A stretch of DNA of 64,000 nucleotides from Deltaproteobacteria bacterium (GCA_019311105.1 JAFDDA010000011.1:1-64000), one strand, 5' to 3'; positions 7,682 through 18,321 are shown, counted from the stretch's first letter. A program made the numbers and translations. The notes: generated from the letters alone by a model not told the origin.

Positions 7682-8836
7682 ATGGATCGATGGGACCAGG
7701 CGCGGGAGTTGATGCTGGAGTTTTCCCTCCGAACCGGCCTTTCCCCTGCTGGCCAGTCGGTCCAGAGGTACCTCTGGACCGATGCCTTCGCCGTCTGCAA
7801 CTTCCTGGGTATATCCGTGGAGATGGGTGACGGCCTCCTCCGGAAGCTGGCATTGGATCTGGTTGCGCAGGTGCATCAGACGCTCGGCCGCCACAGGGCT
7901 GACGACGATCGTACCGGTTGGATCAGCGGGCTCTCGGAGCGCGAGGGCGAACTGCACCCGACGCAGGGCGGCATGCGGATCGGAAAGCCGCTTCCCGAGC
8001 GCACGCCGACCGAGCCCTTCGACGAAGCGAGCGAGTGGAACCGCGACGGGCAGTACTTCCACTACCTGACCCAATGGATGCGGGCACTCGAGAGCGCGAG
8101 CCGAGTCGTCGAGGAACCCCGCTACCACCGCTGGGCGGTCGAACTGGCCAAGACCGCCCACTCCGGGTTTACATCCCTTCCCGGCCAGCACCCCCCGACC
8201 AGGATGCGGTGGAAGATGAGCATCGACCTCCGATATCCGCTCGTCGACACCATGGGCCATCACGATCCGATCACGGGCTTCGTTGCGTACACGGAGCTGC
8301 AGGCCACCGCCCGCAGTGATCCCACACTCGATCTGTCCCGGGAACTGAGCGACCTAGCGGCCATCTGTGAGGGCCAGGATCTCGTGACCTCCGACCCTCT
8401 CGGGATCGGCGGCCTGCTGTCGGACGCTTGCAGGTTCGCCCAGCTACGGACCGGCGGGGCTGAAGGACCGGACTCGTTGATCCCTCGCCTCCTGGAGTCC
8501 GCGCTCCTCGGCCTGCCGGCCTGTACGGCTTCGGCTTGGTGGCTCCGGCCTGCGGTGGATCGCCTGGCCTTTCGCGAGTTCGGCCTCTCGATCGGTCTGC
8601 ACGGCATGAGACGCCTCACACGGGTGCTCCAGAAGCACCCGCTCTCGGGGATTCGTCAGCAAGAGACGGCCCGCCTTCTCGACGACTTGGCGGAGTATCG
8701 ACACCTCTCAGAAGAAATCGAGACGTTCTGGCTCTCGCCTTCGAATCGCAACGCGGAAAGCTGGAGAGCGCATCGCGACATCAACGACGTCATGCTCGCA
8801 ACGAGCCTCGCGCCCGCGGGCTATCTCAGTGCCTAG
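7682..8836 (+). CDS. Uncharacterised 384-aa protein, helix-rich
   Basis: Long uninterrupted ORF in the same orientation as flanking genes; WNRDGQYFHYLTQWMRAL motif reminiscent of six-hairpin/alpha-alpha barrels. Confidence 0.75.
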   Translation: MDRWDQARELMLEFSLRTGLSPAGQSVQRYLWTDAFAVCNFLGISVEMGDGLLRKLALDLVAQVHQTLGRHRADDDRTGWISGLSEREGELHPTQGGMRIGKPLPERTPTEPFDEASEWNRDGQYFHYLTQWMRALESASRVVEEPRYHRWAVELAKTAHSGFTSLPGQHPPTRMRWKMSIDLRYPLVDTMGHHDPITGFVAYTELQATARSDPTLDLSRELSDLAAICEGQDLVTSDPLGIGGLLSDACRFAQLRTGGAEGPDSLIPRLLESALLGLPACTASAWWLRPAVDRLAFREFGLSIGLHGMRRLTRVLQKHPLSGIRQQETARLLDDLAEYRHLSEEIETFWLSPSNRNAESWRAHRDINDVMLATSLAPAGYLSA

Positions 8837-8877
8837 CTGAGGACCGCGGACGCAGACGGCAACGGAGAACCCACACC

Positions 8878-10887
8878 ATGCCCACCATGCAAGAGCAGCG
8901 CGACACGATGGTCGATCAGCAGATCGTGTCCAGAGGGGTTCGCGACTCGGCAGTCCTATCGGCGATGCGCACGGTTCCGAGAGAGATCTTCGTCGAGGAT
9001 CGGCTCCTGGAGTTTGCGTACGACGATGCGCCCTTGCCGATCGAGGAGGGCCAGACGATCTCGCAGCCGCTGATCGTTGCGCTGATGGCCGAGTCGCTAG
9101 AGCTGTCCGCGAACGATCGAGTCCTCGAGATCGGCGCCGGCTCGGGGTATGCCGCCGCGGTCCTCAGTCGAATCGCCGGCTCCGTCTACGCGGTCGAGCG
9201 CCACGAAACCCTCGCCAAGCTCGCCCGGCAGAGAGCCTCGAGACTCGGCTACGACAACATCGAGGTCCTTCACGGAGACGGTAGCCTGGGATGGAGCGAG
9301 CATGCGCCATACGATGCCATCCTCGTATCCGCCGGCGGACCGGACATCCCCCAGAGCCTGCTCGAGCAGCTCACGGTCGGTGGGCGGCTCGTGATGCCCG
9401 TAGGCGACGAGCCTCGCAGCCAGGAGCTCCTCCGGGTTCTGCGCACGGCGGCTCATGAATACGACCAGACCTCGCTCGGAAGGGTCCAGTTCGTCCCGTT
9501 GATCGGAAGTGAAGGCTGGTCGCTCGATGGCACGCCGCTGCCGTCGCACCGGGCCCGCGAGCCGCTTCGGATCACAGTGCCAGGGCGGACCCACCTGAGC
9601 GGCCTCATTGCCCAGGCTTGCGAACCGTTCGACGCTCTCGATGAGGCCCCGCTCGACCCGCTCCTGGAGAGAATCGGAGACTCGCGTCTGGTCCTGATTG
9701 GGGAAGCGACTCACGGCACCTCGGAGTTCTACCGGATGCGCGCCCGGATCACGCAGGCACTCGTGACCCAGCGAGGGTTCAACGTCCTCGCGATCGAGGG
9801 GGACTGGCCCGATACCTCCACGATCGATCAATACGTGCGAGGCTGGAAGGGCGAAACGCTTCGAACACCTCCCTTCTCACGCTTTCCGACGTGGATGTGG
9901 CGCAACCGCGAGATGCAGGCCTTCATCGATTGGCTTGCCGAACACAACGGCCAACAGAGCCGATCGAATGGCCAGGTGAGCATCCACGGCCTCGATCTCT
10001 ACAGCCTGTACAACTCCATCGGCGTCGTCCTCGACTACCTCGATCGGGTCGATCCCGATGCCGCGCGGGCGGCACGCGTTCGGTACGGATGCTTCTCGCC
10101 CTGGGAGATGGACCCAGCCACCTACGGACGCGCTGCCGCAACGGGTCGGACCGAGGACTGCGAGAAGGAGGTCGTCGCTACCCTGAACAGCCTCCTCGAG
10201 CAGCGCACACCCTATCGAAACCAAGACGGCGACTCCTTCTTCGACGCGGAACGAAACGCCACGGTCGTCCGGAACGCGGAGCGCTACTACCGCGCCATGT
10301 ACCGCGGGTCTCGTGAGTCGTGGAACCTCCGAGATCAGCACATGTTCGATACGCTACGGGCCGTACTCGAACATCGAGGGGCAGACGCCAAGGCCGTCGT
10401 ATGGGCTCACAACTCCCACGTGGGCAACGCCGCCGCAACCGAGATGGGAGTCCGTGGCGAGTTCAACATCGGCCAGCTCGCACGCGAGGAGCTGGGCCGT
10501 TCGGTCTACTCCATCGGGTTCGGGACCCACACCGGAACGGTTGCCGCCGCCTCGAACTGGGAGGAGCCCGTGCAGTTCATGGGGGTGCGCCCTTCCCATG
10601 AAGACAGCTACGAGCGCCTATGTCACGAGACGGGGCTCCCCGCGTTCTTCCTTCCTCTGCGTGGCGGCGACGAACACGGCTTGCGCGAGGCGCTTCTGTC
10701 GCCGCATCTCGAGCGCGCGATCGGGGTGATCTACCGCCCCGACACGGAGCTCTTGAGCCACTACTTTCAGGCCGCCCTGCCCGCACAGTTCGACGAGTTC
10801 ATCTGGTTCGACCAGTCTTCGGCACTGCAACCGCTGGAGGTCCGCGAGATGGCCGGGTTCCCGGACACGTATCCTTTCGGGCTCTAG
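8878..10887 (+). CDS. Fusion protein: protein-L-isoaspartate O-methyltransferase (PCMT) domain + erythromycin-esterase-like domain
   Basis: N-term MVDQQIVSRGVRDSAVLSAMRTVPRE...VLEIGAGSGYAAAVLSRIAGSVYAVER (PCMT); C-term LVLIGEATHGTSEFYRMRARITQALV...AIEGDWPD...WAHNSHVGNA (Ere family). Confidence 0.88.
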   Translation: MPTMQEQRDTMVDQQIVSRGVRDSAVLSAMRTVPREIFVEDRLLEFAYDDAPLPIEEGQTISQPLIVALMAESLELSANDRVLEIGAGSGYAAAVLSRIAGSVYAVERHETLAKLARQRASRLGYDNIEVLHGDGSLGWSEHAPYDAILVSAGGPDIPQSLLEQLTVGGRLVMPVGDEPRSQELLRVLRTAAHEYDQTSLGRVQFVPLIGSEGWSLDGTPLPSHRAREPLRITVPGRTHLSGLIAQACEPFDALDEAPLDPLLERIGDSRLVLIGEATHGTSEFYRMRARITQALVTQRGFNVLAIEGDWPDTSTIDQYVRGWKGETLRTPPFSRFPTWMWRNREMQAFIDWLAEHNGQQSRSNGQVSIHGLDLYSLYNSIGVVLDYLDRVDPDAARAARVRYGCFSPWEMDPATYGRAAATGRTEDCEKEVVATLNSLLEQRTPYRNQDGDSFFDAERNATVVRNAERYYRAMYRGSRESWNLRDQHMFDTLRAVLEHRGADAKAVVWAHNSHVGNAAATEMGVRGEFNIGQLAREELGRSVYSIGFGTHTGTVAAASNWEEPVQFMGVRPSHEDSYERLCHETGLPAFFLPLRGGDEHGLREALLSPHLERAIGVIYRPDTELLSHYFQAALPAQFDEFIWFDQSSALQPLEVREMAGFPDTYPFGL

Positions 10888-10941: not shown

Positions 10942-12300
10942 TCAAGCGAGCTCGACCTCTTCCCGATACTCCGGGACCGTCGCAGGATAGTGGTGTTTCT
11001 CCTGGATCTTGCGCCGGAGGACGTCGGCTGGGACCGCTTCACCGTGGGTCACGAACACGTGCTTTGGCGGGCGCTCGCAGGCACCCACCCATCCCAACAG
11101 ACCCGGCTGGTCCGCATGCGCCGAGAGAATGTCCTGCTGGATGACCTCCGCCCGGATCGGGACGTAATCACCGTGGATCTTCACCACCTCCGCGCCAGAC
11201 ACGATTGCGTGCCCTCGAGTTCCGGGCGCCTGAAAGCCCGGCAAGAGAATCGCATTGCGAGGGTCTGGTGCAAGGCCTTTGAGATGGTGAAGGACGCGAC
11301 CGCCGGTGGCCATGCCGCTGGCAGAGATGATCACGGCCGGGATCCGTCCTCGCCGCGTCAGCTCCCGCGACTCCTCGACCGAACGGACGAAGTGGGCGAG
11401 ACCGCAGACCGCTGCACAGCGGTCGTCTGACAAGCGATGATATTCGCTGAACCGTTGATAGAGCTCGGTCACGCTCGTCGCCATCGGGCTGTTCATGTAG
11501 ACGGGGACTTCGGGCGCCAACCCGCGGCGGAAGACCTCGTGAAGGCAGAAGAGAATGCACTGCGCGCGTGCTACGGCGAAGGCCGGGATCAACAGCGTCC
11601 CACCCCGCTCCAGCGTCCGGGCAAGTATCTGACCGATCTCGGCTATGGGATCAGCCTCCGGATGGATTCGGTCGCCATAGGTCGATTCCATCACCACCCA
11701 GTCCGGTGCCTCGGGGCGGACGGGCGGACGCATCAGCAGGTCGTCGTCTCTCCCCAGGTCTCCGGAGAACAACAGCGCGCCTTCGGGTCCGCGCACCTCG
11801 ACGCTGCCCGCCCCCAGGATGTGCCCCGCCGGCTGGATAGACAGCCCGAGGCCTCCAACGTCCGCACGCTCGCCGAACTCGAGCGGAGACAAATACTCCA
11901 ACGCACGCAGCGCATTGCTCTCGGTATAGAGCGGAACTGCTGGATGGTGGCGTGAGAAGCCCTTGCGATTCGCGTACGCCGCATCCTCCTCGTGGATGTG
12001 GCCGGAGTCCGGGAGAAGAACCTGGCAGAGCGATTTCGTCGGGGGGGTGCAGTACACCGGCCCCGTGAATCCATCTCTTACGAGCGCCGGGAGATAGCCC
12101 GCGTGGTCGATGTGCGCGTGGGTGAGGATGACCGCATCGAGATCCTCGAGGTTGGTGGGTGGCCGCTTCCAGTTCCGGAGTCGCAGCTGCTTCACCCCTT
12201 GATAGAGCCCACAGTCAACGAGAACCTTCGCGCCCTGGGTCTCCACCAGGTACTTCGAGCCCGTCACGGTCCCGGCCCCTCCCAGGAAACTGAGCTTCAT
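10942..12300 (-). CDS. MBL-fold / beta-CASP RNA metallo-hydrolase
   Basis: HAHIDHAGYLPALV motif, GAGSVEVRGPEGALLFSGDLGR, HAHADQPGLLGW, C-terminal FVTHGEAVPADVLRRKI. Confidence 0.9.
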   Translation of the reverse strand: MKLSFLGGAGTVTGSKYLVETQGAKVLVDCGLYQGVKQLRLRNWKRPPTNLEDLDAVILTHAHIDHAGYLPALVRDGFTGPVYCTPPTKSLCQVLLPDSGHIHEEDAAYANRKGFSRHHPAVPLYTESNALRALEYLSPLEFGERADVGGLGLSIQPAGHILGAGSVEVRGPEGALLFSGDLGRDDDLLMRPPVRPEAPDWVVMESTYGDRIHPEADPIAEIGQILARTLERGGTLLIPAFAVARAQCILFCLHEVFRRGLAPEVPVYMNSPMATSVTELYQRFSEYHRLSDDRCAAVCGLAHFVRSVEESRELTRRGRIPAVIISASGMATGGRVLHHLKGLAPDPRNAILLPGFQAPGTRGHAIVSGAEVVKIHGDYVPIRAEVIQQDILSAHADQPGLLGWVGACERPPKHVFVTHGEAVPADVLRRKIQEKHHYPATVPEYREEVELA

Positions 12301-12329
12301 CCCGGCCTCTCCTCTCGTTTCGACTCCGG

Positions 12330-13838
12330 CTAGAACCCGTAGCGATAGATCTCGTCACTCTCGGCTGCGTAGTCGCGTGCGAATGCCAGCTGTGCCGCAC
12401 TCTGCGCGTGGATCTCGAAGAGCGGCTCGCCCCGTTCAACGACGGAGTTCACGCCTCGCAGTAACTTGAGACCTGCGGACACGTTGGCCGGCGAACCAGC
12501 CAGCTTTGCGATCCGACTGATCTCGAGAGAATCGATCTCGCGGATCCGGCCATCTCGGCGCGCCACTACGACATGCCGGAACACTGCGGGATCGGGGAGC
12601 GACCTTCGGCCCTGCGCATCGACCATCTCCTCGAACTTCGCTTCCGCCCGGCCGGAGTCGAGGGCCCCATGAGCCAAACGATATCCTTCCGCGTCCGGCG
12701 CAAACCCGGTTCGTTCCAGGAGGCGGGCCGCCAGGTAGAGCGACTTCTCGCGCAAGCCGCGAGGCGCGTCCGGCTCACGACGCAACACGGATAGTACGTC
12801 GAGGGCTTCGAGGCGCGGGCCCACACCGCTTCCGATCGGTCCGCGCGCTTCGGTGACTACGATATCCACCTCAAGCTCCACGGCCTGCGCGACGAGCCGA
12901 AAGAGTGCGGCCAGATCTTCGGCTTCCGCCTGTGACCGAACCTTGGCACTCGAACCAACGGGAATGTCGATCAGGGCGTGGGTCGCCCCGGCAGTCTTCT
13001 TCTTGGCAAGGATCGAGGCGACCATTTGCGCCTCCGTATCGATCTGCATCGGACGCTCGACCGTGATCAGCACGTCGTCGGCCGGAGCGAGATCGAGCGC
13101 ACCTCCCCAAACGATGCAGCCGCCGACGCGCTCGACAACGTCGTAGATCTCGGACGCTTGAAGCTCCACGTTCGCGAGCACGCCCATCGTATCCGCGGTC
13201 CCTGAGGGGCTCGTGATGGCGCGCGAGGAGGTCTTGGGGATCGTGACCCCGAGCGACGCGAGGATGGGGACCACGATCATGGTGGTTCGGTTCCCAGGAA
13301 TCCCGCCGATGCAGTGCTTGTCGGCCACAATCGCGGAGTCGAACCGAAGACTCGACCCGCAATCGACCATCGCTCCGGTGAAATCAATGAGCTCCTGGGT
13401 ATCGAGATTGCGGAGAGCGCACGCCAGCACGAACATCGCGAGTTCGGGCTTCGAGTAGCGCCGCGCCACGACGTCTTCCAGGATCCGGTCGAAGTCGGCG
13501 CGCGTCATGCGGTGACCTCGAAGCTTCTCGCGTACGCAAGCGATGCTGGTGGGGGCACGCGCCAGTGTGGCCCCGACCTGAGCGCCCTCGGAGAGAGCCA
13601 TGTCGGCAAAGGCCACTTCGGAAAGACCGATCTCGTCCTTCTCGAGGAGCGAATCGTGGCAGAAGTTGAGGATCCCCGTGATCCCGCCCTGCCCTTCCGC
13701 TTCCGAATCGACCCCGAATACGCGCACGCGATCTAGAGGGTTGAATCCCAGCGAGCCCTCGCACACCGCCCGCTCGTTGATGAAAACGACGTGCTCGCTC
13801 TGGGTATCGATCTCGAGGCGCTTCAGCCGAAACATCAA
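12330..13838 (-). CDS. Thymidine phosphorylase / AMP (NMP) phosphorylase family, archaeal-type long form
   Basis: KHCIGGIPGNRTTMIVVPILASLG, KTSSRAITSPSGTADTMGVLA; long N-terminal extension typical of archaeal-type family. Confidence 0.85.
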   Translation of the reverse strand: MMFRLKRLEIDTQSEHVVFINERAVCEGSLGFNPLDRVRVFGVDSEAEGQGGITGILNFCHDSLLEKDEIGLSEVAFADMALSEGAQVGATLARAPTSIACVREKLRGHRMTRADFDRILEDVVARRYSKPELAMFVLACALRNLDTQELIDFTGAMVDCGSSLRFDSAIVADKHCIGGIPGNRTTMIVVPILASLGVTIPKTSSRAITSPSGTADTMGVLANVELQASEIYDVVERVGGCIVWGGALDLAPADDVLITVERPMQIDTEAQMVASILAKKKTAGATHALIDIPVGSSAKVRSQAEAEDLAALFRLVAQAVELEVDIVVTEARGPIGSGVGPRLEALDVLSVLRREPDAPRGLREKSLYLAARLLERTGFAPDAEGYRLAHGALDSGRAEAKFEEMVDAQGRRSLPDPAVFRHVVVARRDGRIREIDSLEISRIAKLAGSPANVSAGLKLLRGVNSVVERGEPLFEIHAQSAAQLAFARDYAAESDEIYRYGF

Positions 13839-14779
13839 TGGCCCCCCGCGGCGCTGAAAAGATCCGCAACGCCCTTCGCCAGGAGACCGGCCGTCCCAAG
13901 CTGGTTGGTCGAGTGCGGCACGGTGTCAGTGGAATAGAGCCCTCCGAGCCCAGCCTCCCGGAGGCGCCGTTCTGTCGCCTCGTCAAAGAGGGCGTGCACG
14001 ACTACGGCTTCGACGCGATCGACTCCCCTCGAACGCAGGCCACGAGTCGCGGCGGCCAGTGTCGCGCCCGAGCTGGCTACGTCATCCACCAAGAGCGCAG
14101 ACTGCACCCCGCCGGGTAGACGCGGGACCTCCACTTCGACGTCCCGGTCGCCACTGCGGGCCTTGTGACAGACCGTCCAGCGAAGCCCTGCTGCTTCAGC
14201 CGCGACGCGAACCCATGGTTCAGACTCATCGTCGGGGCCGACCACGATGTCGCACCGGCCGCGCGACCGACACCATTCGCCGATGAGTGGCGCCGCCGAA
14301 ACCGACCGAGCCTGGCACGGGAAGACCTCGACCAGCTTCTGGATGCGATGGAGGTGGGCCTCCACGGTGAGCAGACGGTCGAAGGCAGTGCCGAGCAACA
14401 TTCCGACGACCCGCTGGGAAACGGCTTCGCCGGCGTGAAACGCGCGATCCTGGCGCATGTAGCCCAGGTATGGCGCAACCAATACGAGCTCCTCGACTCC
14501 CGCTCTCCGAAGCGCATCTGCAGCGAAGAGGATCTCGACGATCTTCACATTGGGCTGATCGAGAGAGCGCACCAAGACGGCCCGCCTCGGGCCGTCACTA
14601 CAGACGCGAACCAGGGACTCCCCGTCGGGAAACCGGTGGACATCGACGCCGCGACAGACGACTGCCAGACACCTTGCCACGCCCTCGGCGAGCGGCCGGG
14701 CTTCTGCGAACGCGTGGACTTCCAGTTCACTCGACACGGTCGACAGCCTCTCACCCCGCGTCGGAATCACGTGCAACAT
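13835..14779 (-). CDS. Ribose-phosphate pyrophosphokinase-like protein
   Basis: FPDGE, PYLGYMRQDRAFHAGEAVS, PRPP loop VDDVASSGATL; 4-nt overlap with the downstream phosphorylase. Confidence 0.85.
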   Translation of the reverse strand: MLHVIPTRGERLSTVSSELEVHAFAEARPLAEGVARCLAVVCRGVDVHRFPDGESLVRVCSDGPRRAVLVRSLDQPNVKIVEILFAADALRRAGVEELVLVAPYLGYMRQDRAFHAGEAVSQRVVGMLLGTAFDRLLTVEAHLHRIQKLVEVFPCQARSVSAAPLIGEWCRSRGRCDIVVGPDDESEPWVRVAAEAAGLRWTVCHKARSGDRDVEVEVPRLPGGVQSALLVDDVASSGATLAAATRGLRSRGVDRVEAVVVHALFDEATERRLREAGLGGLYSTDTVPHSTNQLGTAGLLAKGVADLFSAAGGH

Positions 14780-15011
14780 CCCCTACGAGTGCCCCGGGAT
14801 CGAAGACCCGACGGCGCACCACACGCCCGACCCGCGAGGTCAAAACCGCTACGGGCGCGCCCTACCCGCCCCCCGCAGGAGCCCCTCGTACGGTACCGGA
14901 ATGCCTCGGCATCGCCCGGCGCATTCCCACGGAAACACCCGGCCTCCGAGCGAAGCGTTTCGCCCCATCCTCGACCGCCGAATGCGCGCCGCCAGCCGAC
15001 CGGGCGTTCCG

Positions 15012-16247
15012 TCAGCCCATCGCGGCCCCTGAAGCTGGGGTGTGCCTGTCCGTGGCGAACCAATCCTGCGTTCTCAGACAGAACCGGACCAGGCCAAGCA
15101 TGAGCGGCACTTCGATCAGAACGCCGACCACCGTGGCCAGGGCGGCGCCGGAGGAGAGGCCGAAAAGCATCACCGCGGTGGCGATCGCCACTTCGAAGTG
15201 GTTGCTGGCGCCAATCATGGCCGTTGGAGCCGCATCTGCGTATCGGAGGCCGAACACCCTCGCGAGAGCATACGCGAGGCTGAAAATGAGCAGCGTCTGG
15301 ACCGTCAGCGGAACTGCAATCCAGAGGATGGTGAGTGTGTTCTCGAGAATCACCTCTCCTTTGAACGAGAACAGCAGGACGAGCGTGAGCAGCAGCGCAC
15401 CAATCGTGATCGGCGTGAGGAGATGGAGGAAGGTCTTCTCGAACCATTCCTTTCCTCGGGCTGCGATGATCCACCGGCGCGAGAAAGATCCAGCGACGAG
15501 TGGCAGAGCGACGTAGACGCCGATGGACAGCAAGAGCGCCTGCCAGGGCACAGGCAGCCGACCGATGCCCAACAGAAAGCCCCCAAGCACTCCGTACAGA
15601 ACGATCATGGTGAGCGAATTGATCGCGACCATGACGAGCGTATGGCCGTCACTTCCGCGCGCCAGATATCCCCAGACGAGGACCATGGCGGTGCACGATG
15701 CGACGCCCAGAAGGATGCAGCCCGCGAGGTAGCTTCTCCACAGCGGAACCTCGAGAAGCTTGACTCCGTCTTGGACGACCACGTGTCCCGAGCCATATGG
15801 GGATCCCTCGGCCAAGTCGAGACCGAAGGGAAGTTTCACCAGGTCTGTGGCTTCAGGGCCGATGAAGCCCAGGAACAGCGTACCGAGGAAAAGGTTGGCG
15901 ACGGCCAACATGGTGAAAGGCTTTGCACACCAGTTTACGAATAGCGTCAGCAGAAACGGGGCGAACGCTCCTGCCTGCCGCGACGACCTCGCCAAAATCG
16001 ATCTTCACCATGATGGGATACATCATGAAGAAGAGGCAGACGGCAATCGGTGCCGACACCACCGGCGCTCCCCCGACATCGAGCGTCATGCCGTCGAGAC
16101 TGCGAGCAAACCCCGGTGCCACTCTACCCAGAGCGATCCCGGCGACCATGCAGAGAAATACCCAGACCGGCAGGAAGCGCTCGAATCCGTGTATTTGACG
16201 ATCTGTCGTTGATTGGTCTGCTCGCCAGACGGTGTTCCGGGATCCAT
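15012..16247 (-). pseudogene. ACR3-family arsenite efflux transporter, frameshifted
   Basis: C-terminal ~310 aa in ORF 15012-15995 ([16 protein letters not shown]...[14 protein letters not shown]); N-terminal part in a second frame ([22 protein letters not shown]...[13 protein letters not shown]); likely start [20 protein letters not shown] in a third frame. Confidence 0.8.
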
Positions 16248-16524: not shown

Positions 16525-16888
16525 CTAGAGTTCGAGGGGTAGCGCGAGTGCGGTCGTTGCGGGGAGGTCGCAGTCATCCTGGCAGGCGCGTTCATCGACG
16601 TCCATCGTTCTCGGGTAGGCCCGGTAGGATTGGGGCCCCGTCCCTCCGACACGGGGCATCCCACTCACGAGACCGGCGAGCTGGATCACCTCGTGAGCGG
16701 CAACGCTCAGACTGAAGGCGAACACGTTTCTGCGGCCGTATCTCTCGCGGTCGGCGTGACTCAGGCCCGCGAGGTAGTCGGGATCGTCGAGCCTGCCGTC
16801 TCGGTCGAGCGCGACATCGCTTCTTCGAAGAGCGTCCAGGCAATAGAGACATGCGAACCCCGAGCCGACGCTGCCGAACTGGGCTTCT
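16525..16888 (-). pseudogene. ThiF/E1-like protein, C-terminal remnant
   Basis: GFACLYCLDALRRSDVALDRDGRL...RYGRRNVFAFSLSVAAHEVIQLAGLVSG...ACQDDCDL; no 5' portion, abuts the integrase stop codon. Confidence 0.45.
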
Positions 16889-17777
16889 AGGGGTCTAGGC
16901 TCTCCACGGCCTCGCGCTTCTCCTCATCGTAGGCCGATACGTACCGCTTGACGACGTTCAGGTCGTCCCACCCGCCCAGCTCGCGAACGGTCTCGAGGCT
17001 CGCCCCATTTCGGTGCATCTGACTGGCCCAGGTCCGGCGCAGCTGATGCAGACCCGGCTTCCGCGTGTCACGAAGCCCTGCCCGCTCCCAGATCTTCTTC
17101 ATCGCCTTGTCCATCGCGGAGGTCACCGGCTGATGGGGGTCACGCCGCTTCGGGAAGAGCCACGCGCCTCGAAGAGTTGCGATGTGGTCTTTGAGTCGGA
17201 GTGACAACTGCTCCGCAAAGGGAACGCTCCGGCACTCCCAGTCCTTGGGCTCCCAGGCGACCCCGTGGCGCTCGGAGGTTTTGGACCGGACCTCGATCAT
17301 CCGGTGGTCGAAATCCACGTCTTCGACTCTCAACATCATGATCTCCTCCCGCCTCAAGCCTGCCTTCATCGCCAGGAGAAGCGCCACGTCCCAGGAGGCC
17401 GCGGCCGCTTCGAAGAGGCGATGGACCTGCGCGTCGGAAAGCTTGTCCGGGAGGCCCTTGCGCTGCTTGAGTTCCTTGATCTCGACGAGGTCGGGATGCC
17501 CACGGAGCGGCCCGCCCTTTCGGGCCGCGTGATGCATCGCCGCCTTCAGCACCCGGAAGTCGCCGTTGATCGTGCCGTTCTCCACTCCGTCCCGACGGCG
17601 TCGGATGCGGGCATGAGTCCCGAGATCCTTGTCCGTCATCCGAGACACGTCGAAATCGGCCCCGAAGACCGATTCCAGCATTCGCTGCTTCGATTCGGCA
17701 CTGCGGTGGCTGTTGCCCTTCGTCGTACGGTCCCTCAGACCGTCGACGTAGGCGTCGAGGATCACGCGAAGAGACAC
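16887..17777 (-). CDS. Tyrosine-type site-specific recombinase/integrase
   Basis: Catalytic pattern: GLRREEI (R), HQLRRTWASQMHRNG (HxxR), GGWDDLNVVKRYVSA (W, Y). Confidence 0.88.
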   Translation of the reverse strand: MSLRVILDAYVDGLRDRTTKGNSHRSAESKQRMLESVFGADFDVSRMTDKDLGTHARIRRRRDGVENGTINGDFRVLKAAMHHAARKGGPLRGHPDLVEIKELKQRKGLPDKLSDAQVHRLFEAAAASWDVALLLAMKAGLRREEIMMLRVEDVDFDHRMIEVRSKTSERHGVAWEPKDWECRSVPFAEQLSLRLKDHIATLRGAWLFPKRRDPHQPVTSAMDKAMKKIWERAGLRDTRKPGLHQLRRTWASQMHRNGASLETVRELGGWDDLNVVKRYVSAYDEEKREAVESLDP

Positions 17778-18279
17778 GTGAGGCCAAGGCGCCGACCATG
17801 AATGCGATCGGCTCGGAGAGCCCGATCTGAGCGGCCTGGACCGGAGATGGACTCGTGACCCCTAGTCCCACGCGGATGATGCCGCGGATCCGCTGGCGCT
17901 CCCCTTCGGCTCGATCTCGCGCAACCTCGAGCTCGCCGGTCTGAAGCGAAGCGTTGCCACGAGCCGATCCGCCAAAGAGGTACCGGACCTCTTCCCGGAC
18001 ACGCCACCGGAGCTAGTAGCTCGTGCCGCTCTTGGGCAGGTCCAACGACCCGAACGGCTCCGCGAGAATTCGCTCGACGGCGCGAGATAGGGGGCGACTG
18101 ATGCCCACTCCTGGGCACCAGTGATGCCCAGAACTCGACGAGCCGACATTCCGGGAACTGATGGCTCGGGGCGCTAGATGGGGGGCGTCTTGGGACTTCC
18201 TAGTGAAGCGTCGCACGGTTACCTCCGTGGTACTTCACTTCCCTTTAGTCTAGTTGGCGTTTTGGATAAGGATTCGGCG

Positions 18280-18321
18280 AAGGATTTGCAGTCCTCTGCC
18301 TTACCACTTGGCTACGGCGCC
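18280..18321 (-). pseudogene. tRNA-Cys (GCA anticodon) 5' portion; 3' half degenerate
   Basis: Reverse complement GGCGCCGTAGCCAAGTGGTAAGGCAGAGGACTGCAAATCCTT matches acceptor 5' strand, D-arm and anticodon arm of bacterial tRNA-Cys; no intact T-arm or 3' acceptor strand follows. Confidence 0.7.

Follow-up and report, generated by a model that had tools for sequence, protein, structure and literature searches.

A conserved gene pair for an NMP phosphorylase and a PRPP synthetase homologue as a candidate RuBisCO-less nucleotide salvage route in bacteria

Introduction

In the archaeal nucleoside 5'-monophosphate (NMP) shunt, or pentose bisphosphate pathway (T. kodakarensis TK0352, R15P isomerase and form III RuBisCO), the expected product of the phosphorylase is ribose 1,5-bisphosphate (R15P). 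A phosphorylase of the same family is encoded, packed with two other genes, in a stretch of 64,000 nucleotides from Deltaproteobacteria bacterium (GCA_019311105.1 JAFDDA010000011.1:1-64000; hereafter the window). What would become of R15P in this bacterium? We analyzed the three genes, here called PRS2, NMPP and MBL, and suggest with moderate confidence that the module is a RuBisCO-less salvage route from NMP through R15P to phosphoribosyl pyrophosphate (PRPP). The initial annotation of the window had proposed a stress-induced route from RNA to PRPP or sugar phosphates, and that idea is partly supported. The features of the locus are:

13835-14779, minus strand: PRS2, 314 aa, PRK07199-type class I PRPP synthetase homologue, first gene of the unit
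12330-13838, minus strand: NMPP, 502 aa, nucleoside-5'-monophosphate phosphorylase homologue (TIGR02645/PRK04350), overlapping the PRS2 stop
10942-12300, minus strand: MBL, 452 aa, accessory member, a beta-CASP metallo-hydrolase akin to RNase TTHA0252/CPSF73
14780-15011, minus strand: intergenic stretch 5' of the unit, presumed promoter region, no FNR/FixK box

An 85-kb contig carries the window; it belongs to a metagenome-assembled genome (MAG), G000, of 4.76 Mb and ~90% completeness. The open reading frames (ORFs) of the minus-strand unit at 14779-10942, in the order PRS2, NMPP, MBL, match the coordinates of the initial annotation exactly. The 4-nt overlap that it described between PRS2 and NMPP applies with a TTG start of NMPP (13838); with an ATG start (13835) the overlap is 1 nt (TGATG). 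The gap between NMPP and MBL, put at about 30 nt, is 29 nt, and a GAGAGGAGAGG stretch precedes the MBL ATG. Because the nearest upstream same-strand gene ends ~230 nt from PRS2, the three genes are presumed to form a single transcription unit.

Conservation of the gene set

We surveyed 85 NMPP loci, consisting of the best-scoring 80 genome loci of at least 588 matches and five plasmids. In 75 of the 85 loci (72 of the 80 from genomes), PRS2 is encoded on the NMPP strand at a distance of no more than 200 bp, and MBL lies within 3 kb of NMPP in 22. The loci span the Alpha-, Beta- and Gammaproteobacteria (Pseudomonadota), Bacteroidota, Myxococcota and Planctomycetota, and the trio also occurs on a Chlamydiota plasmid. 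The linkage of NMPP to PRS2 therefore reaches several phyla and extends beyond close relatives, the point on which the initial annotation had staked its proposal. The conserved core is NMPP plus PRS2, and MBL is an optional third member.

Co-occurrence follows the same pattern. Within the window's class, PRS2 is present in 8 of 10 NMPP-positive genomes and in none of 81 NMPP-negative genomes (Fisher p = 5e-10); in this count PRS2 sequences scored 295-431 bits and canonical PRPP synthetases (PRS) <160 bits against the profile. In one exception (G048), a truncated PRS2 adjoins NMPP. The distance matrices of NMPP and PRS2 are correlated (Mantel r = 0.90, 75 pairs), as are those of NMPP and MBL (r = 0.70, 24 pairs), and shared species history contributes to both values.

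Gene order varies within the NMPP clade of the window. It is PRS2-NMPP-MBL in the window, G085 and G038, PRS2-MBL-NMPP in G090 (where PRS2 is apparently split across two contigs) and MBL-PRS2-NMPP in G026, and in G013 a divergent MBL accompanies NMPP-PRS2. The retention of the gene set through this reshuffling argues for a functional tie among the three proteins. The class contains at least three separate NMPP lineages and many module copies are plasmid-borne, which indicates that the module spreads horizontally.

The phosphorylase and its predicted substrate

NMPP scores 591.5 bits against PRK04350 (cut-off 434) and 524.6 bits against TIGR02645 (cut-off 434.6), which bears out its assignment to the archaeal-type NMP phosphorylases. 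The nearest solved structures are 4ga5 and 4ga4 (E 3e-89), entries titled putative thymidine phosphorylase that we take to be archaeal AMP phosphorylase; the alignment to 4ga5 begins at residue 18. Unlike nucleoside phosphorylases, NMPP has an N-terminal extension of ~90 residues.

We aligned NMPP with E. coli DeoA, a haloarchaeal AMP phosphorylase, two members fused to PhnN (see below) and 86 bacterial sequences. The majority of the thymidine phosphorylase catalytic positions are retained, and K202, T203, S205, T209 and S210 of NMPP differ from DeoA. The motif KTSSRAITSPxGTAD is common to the NMP-type enzymes (haloarchaeal, PhnN-fused and PRS2-linked) and absent in DeoA. We note that the genome loci L037-L116 were found with the patterns DKHC[IV]GG[ILV]P and [IMV]PKTSSRAI, so that conservation at those positions is partly built in. 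A second alignment of 15 sequences found by profile or tblastn, and thus free of pattern bias, has the same signature residues. An NMP substrate is well supported by these sequence features.

At the position of DeoA S86, NMPP carries C176 (window 13311-13313). This residue is Cys in nearly all PRS2-linked NMPPs, a count partly biased by the DKHC pattern, and Ser in the archaeal and PhnN-fused NMPPs. One unannotated faecal 'phage' contig in a phage collection carries an NMPP-like gene. In the literature that we found, no role is stated for the bacterial archaeal-type NMP phosphorylases, which are annotated as 'thymidine phosphorylase'.

PRS2 has an altered but intact active site

PRS2 exceeds the PRK07199/NF005537 cut-off (337.7 vs 322 bits). 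The best PDB matches of its AlphaFold2 model (predicted local distance difference test score, pLDDT, 94.3) are all PRPP synthetases, with template modeling (TM) scores of 0.76-0.84 on the query. The genome also encodes a separate canonical PRS (G000:C5, 399.9 bits).

PRS2 shares the fold and the catalytic and metal residues of the class I PRPP synthetases (E. coli Prs, M. jannaschii PRS). Across the PRS2 family (72 sequences), the residues that correspond to E. coli R96-D98, H131, D170, K194, D220, D221 and T228 do not vary; the fold, Mg and catalytic-loop residues kept are, in PRS2 numbering, H142, D183, K206, R208, R109-D111 and D232-D233. The family differs from those enzymes in its ribose and metal site, where LHR, E, W and S, all invariant in the same sequences, stand in place of E. 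coli A132-Q134, G172, R176 and D224. These family-specific changes include E133H, Q134R, G172E, R176W and D224S (E. coli numbering) and appear in PRS2 numbering as HLHR, E185, W189 and S236, invariant throughout the family. PRS2 departs from the canonical ribose-phosphate/PRPP loop motifs DDxxDTGGT and PDxGG and has DDVASSGAT instead.

The initial annotation had described this loop as non-canonical. The motifs that it named, VEAHLHR and VDDVASSGATL, are present, but they are not peculiar to this genome, and the catalytic and Mg residues are kept. Because the altered residues are invariant in 72 sequences, the unusual loop is a fixed family trait and not decay; the conservation is no search artefact, since the loci were not picked by PRS sequence. 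The site is altered yet intact. Among viral sequences, two match PRS2 at 35-41% identity and the other matches are distant.

Candidate fates of ribose 1,5-bisphosphate

We searched the window's genome for enzymes that could consume R15P. The best match to R15P isomerase (TIGR00511) in this ~90% complete MAG scored 146.9 bits against a cut-off of 314.1, which was not reached in any of the 10 NMPP-positive genomes. RuBisCO had no match in the MAG; in one other NMPP-positive genome a partial match exceeded the cut-off. For PhnN, the best score in the MAG was 38 bits (cut-off 156), about what a related P-loop kinase such as guanylate kinase would be expected to give. We thus rejected R15P isomerase, PhnN and RuBisCO as local fates of R15P. 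The lack of an isomerase and of RuBisCO, first remarked for the window, extends genome-wide, and the fate of the product would differ from that in the archaeal pathway, as had been anticipated. The bacterial module shares with that pathway the phosphorylase family, its signature residues and its expected product, whereas NMPP is here paired with PRS2 and often with a beta-CASP protein.

A second kind of partner was found elsewhere. Natural fusions of PhnN and NMPP occur in three other proteobacteria, from two proteobacterial classes:

L132:8341-10494, PhnN-NMPP fusion
L150:5965-8091, PhnN-NMPP fusion
L151:5830-7824, PhnN-NMPP fusion

One annotated protein, encoded directly after nadC, combines PhnN and NMPP in Variovorax sp. 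SRS16 and in Pacificitalea manganoxidans, and in Paraburkholderia sp. 22B1P one unannotated ORF behind a nadC-like ORF covers both parts. Both halves of the Variovorax fusion score above curated cut-offs (PhnN 179.7 vs 156 bits, NMPP 445.5 vs 434.6 bits). PhnN, known from E. coli as ribose 1,5-bisphosphokinase, converts R15P to PRPP, and NadC consumes PRPP. These fusions beside nadC make the suggested link to PRPP plausible. PRS2 would share with PhnN the role of R15P consumer and has a different fold. A 2024 paper notes that phnN adjoins nadC in Variovorax in a text without the word 'phosphorylase' (PMC11452294); in this one paper found, the fusion of PhnN to a phosphorylase apparently went unremarked.

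By gene context, NMPP is partnered either by PhnN or by PRS2, each of a PRPP-forming type. We infer from this that PRS2 carries the ribose released by NMPP to PRPP; the absence of R15P isomerase and RuBisCO likewise suggests PRS2 as the outlet for R15P.

Low-oxygen regulation

Bradyrhizobium diazoefficiens has the same three gene products in bll3117-bll3116-bll3115, in the different order NMPP-PRS-MBL; this orthology rests on product names and gene set, not on protein alignment. The trio belongs to the core microoxic proteome (log2 changes 2.1, 4.4 and 2.9) with raised transcripts (PMC6515984), and forms a predicted operon with a FixK2-like site at -74, in which mutation of fixK2 lowers bll3117 and bll3115 (-6.6 and -30.6 fold; PMC9104804). 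The passages on these genes list them without a proposed pathway (PMC6515984, PMC9104804). A B. septentrionale plasmid has the same gene order as this trio, and its NMPP is 44% identical to that of the window.

We then looked for the TTGAN6TCAA box upstream of 85 NMPP operons and found 5 perfect sites and 27 with at most one mismatch; 11 permuted control motifs gave 0-1 perfect and 3-11 near matches in the same DNA. Low-oxygen control by FNR/FixK is recurrent in the family, and the window operon is preceded by no such box. The stress induction suggested at first has indirect support from the Bradyrhizobium orthologues, which are microoxia-induced and FixK2-dependent.

A proposed route and its alternatives

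The gene unit, its families and linkage, the PRS2 site and the PhnN fusions are results of computation; the substrates, direction and product fate in the steps that we now propose are predictions from them. In an optional first step, MBL would cut RNA to 5'-NMPs or fragments. NMPP, as judged by its family and signature, would then convert NMP and Pi to base and R15P, like the archaeal enzyme. Finally, PRS2 would feed the ribose to the PRPP pool, using R15P and ATP as its most likely substrates, and would fill the slot held by PhnN in the PhnN-NMPP fusions. In many hosts, not demonstrably that of the window, low oxygen would turn the module on through FNR/FixK regulators. A stronger version is that PRS2 is a new PRPP-forming enzyme, a PRS fold re-tooled for the R15P made by NMPP, by which many bacteria, commonly at low oxygen, would turn RNA-derived NMPs directly into PRPP and need no RuBisCO, R15P isomerase or PhnN. 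We advance this only tentatively, as a possibility more doubtful than otherwise.

The module is common across bacteria and often low-oxygen-linked and plasmid-borne, and its PRS2 partner and the PhnN fusions point to PRPP. If the proposal is true, a widespread gene set of this kind would be explained as nucleotide salvage. The catalytic role of PRS2 is the most interesting point of the module.

Several observations weigh against the route. NMPP falls under the cut-off of the AMP phosphorylase equivalog TIGR03327 (454.5 vs 535 bits), MBL is absent from most loci, and no TTGAN6TCAA-like site with two or fewer mismatches was found upstream of the window operon. PhnN and PRS2 are alternative partners by gene context only. 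We found no published enzyme assay of the module, and to our knowledge the formation of PRPP from R15P and ATP by a PRS fold is unprecedented; PRS2 could simply use ribose 5-phosphate (R5P).

The direction of PRS2 might also be catabolic. NMPP would make R15P, and PRS2 would run so as to yield R5P and save the phosphoryl energy (PRPP + AMP -> R5P + ATP, or an R15P equivalent); under oxygen shortage, phosphoketolase and acetate kinase would then draw ATP from the R5P. On a Criblamydia plasmid, MBL-NMPP-PRS2 has genes for phosphoketolase, glucan phosphorylase and acetate kinase on its flanks. On a Pseudorhizobium plasmid a PRS gene and a 'xylulose 5-phosphate 3-epimerase', matched by the phosphoketolase query, precede MBL-NMPP, and phosphoketolase-acetate kinase (bll2518-bll2517) of Bradyrhizobium belongs to the same FixK2 regulon (PMC9104804). 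We consider this reading rather unlikely, however: phosphoketolase or acetate kinase lies near NMPP in just 3 of 93 loci, for which reason we rejected them as general partners of the module, and PRPP synthetases normally run toward PRPP.

If PRS2 were an ordinary R5P-using PRPP synthetase, NMPP might clear its AMP by-product or tune adenine and R15P pools. PRS2 does have the class I PRPP synthetase fold and catalytic residues, but the genome already has a canonical PRS, the ribose and metal site carries invariant family-specific changes, and in the class sampled PRS2 is found only together with NMPP. We hold this to be improbable. An anabolic base salvage, in which PRS2 makes R15P from R5P as a 1-kinase and NMPP runs in reverse (base + R15P -> NMP + Pi), seems very improbable: phosphorylase equilibria often favor synthesis, and the archaeal enzyme has been proposed to act in both directions (PMC9700705), but the RNase partner and the R15P-consuming PhnN fusions would be left unexplained. 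That NMPP acts as a phosphorylase of thymidine or of pyrimidine nucleosides and has unrelated passengers as neighbors on mobile stress islands, as database names and the many plasmid copies might suggest, is hardly credible given the conserved linkage, the co-occurrence, the persistence despite order shuffling, the NMP-phosphorylase signature and the N-terminal extension.

The beta-CASP protein and neighboring genes

MBL comprises the Pfam domains Lactamase_B, Beta-Casp and RMMBL, and is the sole copy in the genome at the sensitivity used. Its nearest PDB entry is RNase TTHA0252 of Thermus thermophilus (E 3e-72), with which it shares domain make-up and metal motifs (HxHxDH and the remaining motifs are present in the alignment). 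MBL, a putative RNase, differs in being operon-linked to nucleotide genes.

Some surveyed loci contain further genes. In ten loci, mostly gammaproteobacterial, NMPP-PRS2 comes with a DUF1614 membrane protein (L056, L057, L061, L063, L071, L073, L075, L078, L081 and L099). The Criblamydia (Chlamydiota) plasmid (L133:634-10659) encodes, in a row, phosphoketolase, glucan phosphorylase, an ATP-cone/nuclease-like protein, MBL, NMPP, PRS2 and acetate kinase.

Within the window, an ORF on the plus strand (8536-10887) joins a protein-L-isoaspartate methyltransferase (PCMT) to an erythromycin-esterase domain. A PCMT likewise appears in the Bradyrhizobium microoxic set (PMC6515984). We rejected this neighbor as a module member, as it was near NMPP in 0 of 93 loci. 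In the region 15012-16149 (minus strand), an Acr3 arsenite-efflux ORF covers model positions 75-327 only, and an ORF beside it (15853-16149) resembles the absent Acr3 N-terminus in a different frame; the gene may be frameshifted or misassembled. The window also has a tRNA-Cys(GCA) fragment without its 3' half and, 0.4 kb off, a phage-type integrase (18206-18321 and 16887-17777, both minus strand). The first 42 nt of the fragment are identical to an intact tRNA-Cys at G000:C195, and together with the integrase it suggests the boundary of an integrated element.

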